From the NCBI GenBank assembly GCA_015233015.1, contig JADFYO010000012.1, forward strand, positions 1-64,000: a stretch of DNA of 64,000 nt, in the 5' to 3' direction. The notes below the pieces were generated by a model. The model had not been told where the DNA came from and did not search any database. It saw nothing but the letters and a program-made list of their open reading frames with translations. Below, one piece after another: positions 21,249-23,448 of the stretch; position 1 is the stretch's first letter; each line of letters starts with the position of its first letter. The translations under genes were made by a program, and so were the position numbers. The DNA comes from Nitrospirota bacterium (lineage in GTDB: Bacteria > Nitrospirota > Thermodesulfovibrionia > Thermodesulfovibrionales > Magnetobacteriaceae).

Positions 21249-21485
21249 CGCCTTTCGCCGCTTTCAGCGGCCATTATATAAATCCTCTACTCAGCTACCA
21301 GTTACATTATATACAAAATCGCCTGTAAAATAATATATACGATATATACGCAAATAATATATATGATATATTCAGGTGTTATTGCGCCACCTGCCAACCC
21401 GCCCAGCGTGGGGGAAGCCGGTAGCAGGATATGAGCCAGACATGCCTGGTAAGTAATCTGGCCTCGCATGTTCCTTCCACAATAA
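21249..21485. other. AT-rich gap with REP-like motif
   Basis: An alternating A/T tract (about 21318-21372) is followed by GCCAACCCGCCCAGCGTGGG (21397-21416), a REP-like motif similar to that at 3364-3402. No gene is seen. It marks the border between the YeeE genes and the lower-GC PRTase/DprA cassette. Confidence 0.45.
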
Positions 21486-22406
21486 TTACTTGTCAAATAA
21501 TAATTCTACAACCTTACTCATATGTGCCTTTCCAGTTGTTTTACTCTTCATTATACTTAAGGCACCCTCTTCTAACAAAAGTCTATTTCCAACGGCTGAT
21601 TCCGGCATACCATAATATACTGGAGCAAACAAGGGACGTCCCATTTTGAGACATGCTTTCCCAGCATTAAAACTACCGCCTTGTTCTTGCGCCTCAATTA
21701 AAATAGTAAGGTTTGATAAGCCGCATAATGTCGAATTTCTTTTCATAGCATTCCTTACACTCCAGGGAAGTCCAGGAATGAACTCACTTATAATCAAGGT
21801 TCTTTGTTGGTCATACACATTTTGAATATCTCTTTTTAACTTAAAATTCAATATTCCCTCTGCCAGAATTATAGTAGTGGTGCCGCCTGCTTCAAGAGCT
21901 GCAATGTGCACTGCCATGTCCACGCCATGGGCGTAGCCTGAAATAATGTTTACGCCTTCACGTGCCAATTGGCCCGCGCAATCCCTTGCTGTCTCTAAGC
22001 CTTTTATGCTTGGTCTTCTAGAACCGCAAAAACCTGCGGAAGGTTTGTTTAATATATCCAAGTTCCCTTTATAAAAGAGAACTAATGGTGCTTTTTCTCC
22101 TAAAGCGTCTAATAACCTTTCAGGGTATTCTTTTTCGTCGAAACTAACTGAATTTACTTGTTTATCTAACAGGCTCTTCCATTGCTGATCAAGCTCAGTT
22201 TCGTTGATTCTTAATGCCTCTGAATATTTCATAATAAATTGCGGTAGAAGACTATTCGCTTCCACACTTCTAAATAATTCATCTAAGGGAATATCATTGT
22301 CCCTGCAAGCCTTCATAATCTGCCTGGATTTGGAATTTCCTATTCCATTGGCAGTTAACAAACGAAGCAGATGATATGAGTGGTTTGTTATCTGATTAGT
22401 AAGCAT
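21486..22406 (-). CDS. dprA: DprA/Smf-family protein (SLOG-type Rossmann fold)
   Basis: A 306-residue protein. Residues about 90-290 match the DprA Rossmann core: Y-P-E-R-L-L, P-L-V-L-F-Y-K-G-N, G-S-R-R-P-S near 130, V-N-I-I-S-G-Y-A-H-G-V-D near 155, and S-E-F-I-P-G. Canonical DprA loads RecA on incoming ssDNA. The N-terminus has a helix-hairpin-helix-like A-N-G-I-G-N-S segment. It directly abuts a PRTase gene (TAAATG junction) and is more AT-rich than its neighbours. That pairing, rather than a competence setting, suggests a nucleotide- or DNA-sensing conflict role; this is inference. It may be a paralogue of a chromosomal dprA elsewhere. Confidence 0.85.
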   Translation of the reverse strand: MLTNQITNHSYHLLRLLTANGIGNSKSRQIMKACRDNDIPLDELFRSVEANSLLPQFIMKYSEALRINETELDQQWKSLLDKQVNSVSFDEKEYPERLLDALGEKAPLVLFYKGNLDILNKPSAGFCGSRRPSIKGLETARDCAGQLAREGVNIISGYAHGVDMAVHIAALEAGGTTTIILAEGILNFKLKRDIQNVYDQQRTLIISEFIPGLPWSVRNAMKRNSTLCGLSNLTILIEAQEQGGSFNAGKACLKMGRPLFAPVYYGMPESAVGNRLLLEEGALSIMKSKTTGKAHMSKVVELLFDK

Positions 22407-23294
22407 TTACTGATTCCCTTGTATATTGTCGTCATTTTTACAAGTCTTTTCACATGAAAGACTATATACTTTTGCTGCTCCTTGCTCCAATAATAACATC
22501 GCCACATAATTTGTCGTTATGCCGGACTGATAGAGGTCGTCAAGCAGCAATATTTTTTGTCCATCCACGTCTGCTGAAACAGAAATGGAGCCTCTGATAC
22601 TATTAAGTTTTTTATTTAAAGGTAAATTTTTCGTTTCGCCAGTGCGATATTTCTTTTTAACTAAGTTAGATAAGTCTTCCATCTTTAGTACTTTTGATAC
22701 TTTACTCGCTAAGTATTCAGTCAATATAAAGTCCTTATTAGGGTCAGACGGCGGCATTCCGACTATCGAAACGAGTTCATTGTAAAACCTTACTCTTTTG
22801 ATAAATTCAACTACCTTATTTACAAGTTCGTCTGCTGCTTTATAATGTGAATCGTTCACTGGCTGACCACCATAAGGTTTCGCCTTTCTCCTGATTTCGC
22901 CTATTTCTGTCGGGTCATTAGTAGGATTGCCAGTATAACGGTCAAAGTCAATAGCAAAAGATATTGGTAAACAGTCCCTAATAGCAACGCAGCCTACGAT
23001 TTTTTTGAAATAAGCTTCTATAGCATTAAGTTCACCTTCAGTCACTTCATTTAAATATGTATAATAAGTATGATTAGTTCCGTCTCTCCACCCTGTTTGT
23101 TTTATATTGGGAAATGCTTCATCAAACGCCATCTTAAGAGGGGGGAATGGTACAGTTAAACAATGGTCTTGCCCTTCTCTCATTGGGCTTCTTATATATT
23201 CCCATTCATTAGTTATCTGCCTTCTCCCCGGAGGCTCAAGCATTTCTTCTATATCGTCCTCTGAGAATCCCTTATGACCAAAGTTAATGAACAT
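22407..23294 (-). CDS. Phosphoribosyltransferase-domain protein paired with DprA-like gene
   Basis: A 295-residue protein. The C-terminal ~130 residues form a type I PRTase with the PRPP loop ILLLDDLYQSGITTNYVA (about 250-267), like ComF. The N-terminal half (residues 1-150) is unrecognised, rich in Tyr/Asp/Asn, with G-W-R-D-G-T-N-H-T-Y-Y-T-Y-L-N-E. No ComF zinc-finger cysteines are visible, so it is not ordinary ComF. The stop directly abuts the DprA-like ATG, implying coupling. The start lacks a clear Shine-Dalgarno. Base composition is AT-rich relative to the flanking oxidase and YeeE genes, consistent with transfer. Confidence 0.75.
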   Translation of the reverse strand: MFINFGHKGFSEDDIEEMLEPPGRRQITNEWEYIRSPMREGQDHCLTVPFPPLKMAFDEAFPNIKQTGWRDGTNHTYYTYLNEVTEGELNAIEAYFKKIVGCVAIRDCLPISFAIDFDRYTGNPTNDPTEIGEIRRKAKPYGGQPVNDSHYKAADELVNKVVEFIKRVRFYNELVSIVGMPPSDPNKDFILTEYLASKVSKVLKMEDLSNLVKKKYRTGETKNLPLNKKLNSIRGSISVSADVDGQKILLLDDLYQSGITTNYVAMLLLEQGAAKVYSLSCEKTCKNDDNIQGNQ

Positions 23295-23448
23295 CCTGAT
23301 ATACTTTCAACCTCCCACTTGAAACCTTTGACTTGAGTAATACTACCACGATTCAATCCTAAAACTCAACTCAAGCCAGGGTATCCGCCCAGATATGGTC
23401 AGCACAATGGCCTCCACCATTTTTTTTACACCTAATAAAAAATAATAC

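Follow-up and report, generated by a model that had tools for sequence, protein, structure and literature searches.

In a Nitrospirota genome (GCA_015233015.1, contig JADFYO010000012.1), a gene for a phosphoribosyltransferase (PRTase) directly precedes a gene for a DprA-like protein within the 64,000-nucleotide stretch of DNA that was analysed here (the window). The two proteins recall ComF and DprA, which act on incoming DNA, and an earlier note made from the sequence had proposed the pair as a candidate conflict or defence cassette. This raises the question of whether the genes belong to the competence-type equipment of the host or form a defence module of their own.

An acquired gene pair

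Both genes were found on the minus strand and at the places given before. The toxin candidate gene (22407..23294, read from 23294 to 22407) encodes a protein of 295 aa that matches the Pfam family Pribosyltran (PF00156; 2.6e-7), and the antitoxin candidate gene (21486..22406, read from 22406 to 21486) encodes a protein of 306 aa that matches DNA_processg_A (PF02481; 1.7e-43). The stop codon of the PRTase gene abuts the start codon of the DprA-like gene (...CAG TAA ATG CTT... on the minus strand), which confirms the TAAATG junction of the earlier note. Chance open reading frames can be excluded because shuffling the pair's own 1.8 kb 500 times gave stop-free runs of 199 codons at most, because both proteins match Pfam families and because they are conserved in other genomes with 52-65% identity. 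Moreover, dN/dS of both proteins is well below 1 according to a crude estimate with dS near saturation.

The pair is indeed AT-rich, as had been described: the GC content is 38.2% at the pair and the surrounding insert versus 47.6% in the window, and GC3 of the pair is 32-34% (~33%) versus 56-62% in the neighbouring genes. The AT-rich insert (approximately 21339..23435; ~2.1 kb) carries just the PRTase and DprA-like genes and is flanked by a YeeE/YedE-type sulfur transport gene (Sulf_transp) and by an Rrf2 regulator gene that heads cytochrome oxidase genes. In two congeners (G004 and G002), the starts of these flanking genes are only 246 and 387 bp apart, compared to about 2330 bp in the window. 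Homology to the congeners is lost at about 21338-21376, which places the left edge of the segment between ~21339 and ~21377, and it is back at 23436. The congeners thus have an empty site at this position, which together with the low GC and GC3 marks the segment with the pair alone as acquired; the pair has been obtained by horizontal transfer. Two further relatives (G001 and G006) have different genes upstream of the Rrf2 gene, and G001 carries the pair on another contig (C216). The left border contains two AT-rich 20-nt direct repeats that are 24 bp apart (21328..21371). The border had previously been called REP-like, but a REP element can be ruled out because the region 21300-21490 occurs only once in the genome; its outer part is also present at the empty sites of the relatives.

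The host genome (3.78 Mb, 99% complete) possesses its own competence-type genes at other places. A canonical dprA gene, the second copy that the earlier note had proposed to look for, is located on contig C72, separate from the pair; its product of 365 aa reaches 270 bits with the TIGR00732 profile. A ComF/GntX protein is encoded on C73 and a ComEC/competence-type protein on C58. Thus, the observation that competence genes are lacking near the pair is correct, but com-type genes do exist elsewhere in the genome. Given these separate genes, the pair is an extra rather than a housekeeping copy. The earlier note's reading would have been contradicted by a pair that is fixed at this locus in all relatives with com genes and is the only dprA. 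This is not the case, as shown by the empty sites in two congeners, the different genes upstream of Rrf2 in others and the canonical dprA on C72. A third DprA candidate on C57 (L003:1540-1986) was rejected; it is a SLOG-family protein of 148 aa encoded directly after the glutamine synthetase gene, which matched the DprA profile and is unrelated to the pair.

The candidate toxin and antitoxin

An AlphaFold model of the toxin candidate, which was built from 17 sequences, reached a pLDDT of 84 and a pTM of 0.83. The top structural match is ComF from Helicobacter pylori (7p0h; Z 14.2, rmsd 2.8, 163 residues), and ShosT with bound PRPP (8zvc) also matches well (Z 12.3, rmsd 3.2, 173 residues), whereas the remaining PRTases stay at Z values of at most 10.4. 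Foldseek ranked ShosT, of which the structures were released in 2025, in first place. The PRPP loop ILLLDDLYQSGIT is retained (D252, D253, G258). Within its motif DDLYQSG, D252, D253 and Y255-G258 are invariant among eight aligned toxins, the exception in the loop being an L253K-type change at the neighbouring position in G340. The DD of the loop is the counterpart of D663 of RqlH. By contrast, an alignment with 12 ComF proteins revealed that the zinc finger and the RGFNQ motif of ComF are missing from the toxin.

The structural matches span only residues ~100-290. Residues ~100-145 are part of the ComF-like PRTase unit, so the N-terminal half of 150 residues that had been described as unknown is in fact ~100 residues long; no match to it was found. 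In the model, residues ~1-100 form a small alpha/beta unit, which may have roughly a beta-alpha-beta-beta-alpha-beta topology. No family match was found for this part in the homologues scanned, no HAD domain was detected in eight toxin homologues with E values up to 5, the profile of the N-terminal part gave no significant alignment with ShosT, and no helicase domain matched the 295-aa toxin. The homologue scans and the profile comparison also gave no support for a degenerate HAD domain or a ComF zinc finger. The N-terminal part is absent from the VIA structural list, which says nothing for a new fold. The module occupies the place of the HAD domain in ShosT and of the helicase in PsyrT and RqlH, and it probably sets the target or the trigger of the toxin.

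The antitoxin candidate shares the Rossmann domain with canonical DprA and is probably a DNA binder. It scores 126 bits with TIGR00732, which is below the cut-off of 191 bits of the dprA equivalog (NCBIfam). With the PsyrA profile, it reaches 153 bits, the canonical DprA 121 bits and PsyrA proper 400-470 bits. In an unrooted and small tree of 22 DprA-type proteins, nine compact antitoxins including that of the window form a clade of their own (99/97), which is the sister of PsyrA (98/93) and lies outside the PsyrA clade (100/100). Canonical DprA and the ShosA-type proteins form another group (98/93), apart from the compact antitoxins. PADLOC matches were dropped as proof of ShosTA or PsyrTA after control searches, because the canonical DprA matches the ShosA profile at 2.7e-70 and ComF also matches ShosT and PsyrT; these matches are therefore not diagnostic.

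Relatives and their neighbourhoods

Among the 230 genomes of the class, four encode the full toxin with the same N-terminal part, as does one Deltaproteobacteria MAG, and the DprA-like gene follows in every case. The homologues are sporadic and reside at other places in their genomes. A search of the phylum with the PsyrA profile identified three additional pairs (G183, G217 and G120) with toxins of 270-275 aa and DprA-like partners of 347 aa, and also a divergent pair in G340; the genuine PsyrA genes of the phylum are preceded by helicase-type reading frames. The profiles of the whole toxins of the window group and of the G183/G217/G120 group align over 58-291 with a probability of 99.7%. No significant alignment was obtained with the profiles of the N-terminal parts alone (1.2%), so a common N-terminal module of both groups is unproven. 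Altogether, a PRTase gene is located directly before a DprA-like gene in the window and at eight related loci, two of which have a broken toxin and an apparently frameshifted toxin start, respectively. The order of toxin and then antitoxin was seen in the window, G001, G015, the Deltaproteobacteria MAG and the short-toxin pairs of G183, G217 and G120. The divergent pair of G340 has its toxin start in another frame (L063:5653-7100), where the N-terminal part continues; the cause is a frameshift or else an error in the assembly. The toxin of G007 has lost ~43 residues, is frameshifted and contains stops, and its antitoxin of 312 aa is intact. A dead toxin next to an intact antitoxin is the asymmetry that is expected of a toxin-antitoxin pair after toxin loss, here seen in one case. 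Among viral contigs, phages and plasmids, the toxin had no full-length relatives but only partial PRTase matches, and the antitoxin alignment had no matches among viral contigs.

By raw count, five of the nine related pairs adjoin defence-type genes. For instance, the pair of G001 is convergent with a type IX retron (HEPN_IX, 1.9e-43; HTH_IX, 4e-54; RT_IX, 1.6e-136), and this retron set looks complete on its contig of 5 kb (L024:328-2861; JADFXO010000295.1). In G183 (L076:5827-13004), the pair is flanked by an HmaA-like and an HmaB-like gene, after which comes a PLD/SNF2 helicase of 1067 aa. The HmaA-like gene on one side encodes a C-terminal part (NO VEIN C-domain) and the HmaB-like DUF1156 reading frame of 151 aa is probably truncated; possibly, this pair is an insertion into an Hma-type system. 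The pair of G217 adjoins GmrSD_N/NsnA and a type II methyltransferase, and that of G120 adjoins SIR2. A ResIII-type protein is encoded near the pair of the Deltaproteobacteria MAG, where a SocA/Panacea match was weak and below the cut-off. No convincing defence neighbours were found at the copies of the window, G015, G007 and G340. PADLOC also scored a DegP-like protease and a sigma-54 activator, which shows that such neighbour matches can be noise at the level of domains, and both were not counted.

A putative toxin-antitoxin module and its alternatives

Pairs of PRTase and DprA-like proteins are already known, and the pair in the window is therefore not a wholly unknown system. Links between ComFC-like PRTases, helicases and DprA have been noted previously (PMC5512222). 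The DprA homologues of shosTA, syrTA and rqlHI are antitoxins, and a DprA and PRTase pair from a hotspot of P2-like phages, for which abortive infection has been proposed, protects E. coli from T7 and lambda (Rousset et al. 2022, PMC9122126). The latter pair consists of the same two kinds of genes, but it has another host and neighbourhood, and its likeness to the window pair is one of gene content. RqlI restrains RqlH, whose genotoxicity requires the PRTase (D663) but is not fully accounted for by it, and the PRTase of RqlH alone is non-toxic (PMC4670107). As summarised in a review, ShosT combines PRTase and pyrophosphatase activity and upsets purine pools, ShosA binds DNA and Gp0.7 of T7 is the trigger of ShosTA (Pu et al. 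2025 via PMC12593503). The window pair resembles PsyrTA and RqlHI in having a PRTase toxin gene followed by a DprA-like gene and in its antitoxin, which has PsyrA as sister clade (98/93). However, the PsyrT profile has 689 positions and these toxins contain a helicase, whereas the window toxin comprises 295 aa without a helicase, and the window antitoxin falls outside the PsyrA clade. With ShosTA of the Pf phage PfAC02a, the pair shares the gene order, and ShosT (8zvd, 8zvc, 8zvb) is among the best structural matches of the toxin. Unlike ShosT, the window toxin has no detectable N-terminal HAD domain, and its antitoxin lies outside the clade in which ShosA groups with canonical DprA. The pair thus most likely belongs to a compact lineage that has PsyrTA as its sister and is separate from ShosTA. 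No description of a compact lineage with a short N-terminal part was found in the papers searched, which included few subscription papers.

Related arrangements also occur on plasmids. In Hymenobacter (pHB, L049) and Sinorhizobium (pHRB800, L053), PRTase and DprA pairs have a HAD as a third gene, which is unfused there and fused to the toxin in ShosT of the Pf phage; on pHB, a DUF3644 gene lies upstream of the pair. On the Xanthomonas plasmid pXAM48 (L051:2369-3801), a PRTase gene abuts a gene annotated as addiction module antidote protein with no DprA annotation, and it is possible that a PRTase toxin is combined with another type of antitoxin here.

SLOG and PRTase folds are nucleotide binders, and the PRTase could make a messenger that is sensed by the SLOG-fold DprA-like protein. 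Such a signalling defence is highly improbable because a third component, cyclase or effector is lacking and because the relatives act as a toxin and a DNA-binding antitoxin. The earlier note had raised this alternative, but the making of a nucleotide signal finds no support; ShosT, the closest characterised relative, is described in the review as upsetting purine pools (PMC12593503). It is also quite unlikely that the pair serves DNA uptake or recombination by handing incoming single-stranded DNA to RecA. In favour of this reading, ComFC and DprA interact in two species and work on ssDNA that enters the cell (PMC9005727), the toxin has its best structural match in ComF, and the genome contains a comEC-type gene. 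However, the genome encodes a canonical DprA and a ComF/GntX protein elsewhere, the toxin lacks the zinc finger and the RGFNQ motif of ComF, and the pair sits in an acquired insert and is missing from most relatives. This mobile and sporadic distribution of a two-gene pair, with PRTase-DprA pairs on plasmids and in a Pf phage, would in turn fit a selfish addiction module that only stabilises its carrier DNA and confers no phage protection. We regard this as unlikely, since the window pair is chromosomal and has no adjoining plasmid or phage genes in the part examined, relatives often adjoin defence genes, and protection against T7 and lambda is known for a related pair (PMC9122126).

We therefore consider it likely that the pair is an acquired PRTase-DprA toxin-antitoxin module that provides an abortive-infection type of defence against phages or other invading DNA. 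The earlier proposal of a conflict cassette is thus largely borne out by the acquired state of the pair, the defence genes next to several relatives and the known defence activity of PRTase-DprA pairs. The toxin-antitoxin reading also rests on the gene order, the fold shared with ShosT and ComF, the intact PRPP loop, the sporadic distribution, the presence of a canonical dprA elsewhere and the broken toxin of G007. The toxicity of the first protein, its neutralisation by the second, the chemistry, the trigger and the defence itself are inferred by analogy with ShosTA and RqlHI. The product of the first gene would be a PRPP-binding toxin of the ComF type of PRTase, and the co-translated DprA-like protein would restrain the toxin or offset its damage. 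Infection may upset this balance through the DNA or a protein of the phage or because the antitoxin is lost, and it is plausible that the pair senses foreign DNA. The unleashed toxin might then alter the purine nucleotide or PRPP pool or modify a nucleotide-containing target, and growth would stop. The compact toxin may act differently from its relatives because it has neither a HAD domain nor a helicase and because the PRTase of RqlH alone is non-toxic (PMC4670107). More tentatively, the pair may represent a third PRTase-DprA defence lineage, in which a new module of ~100 N-terminal residues replaces the HAD domain and the helicase and brings a different target or trigger.

With the compact pairs, the PRTase-DprA kind now reaches into Nitrospirota and a Deltaproteobacteria MAG. 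In the small unrooted tree, ShosA-type antitoxins and the PsyrA and compact antitoxins lie on opposite sides of canonical DprA, a lead that competence-type proteins may have been recruited repeatedly into defence. The action of PRTase toxins and the signals sensed by their DprA-like partners are just beginning to be understood, and with a compact toxin that lacks HAD and helicase, the toxic part could be pinned down cleanly. If true, the third lineage would be a minimal system, in which neither a HAD domain nor a helicase is needed for killing.
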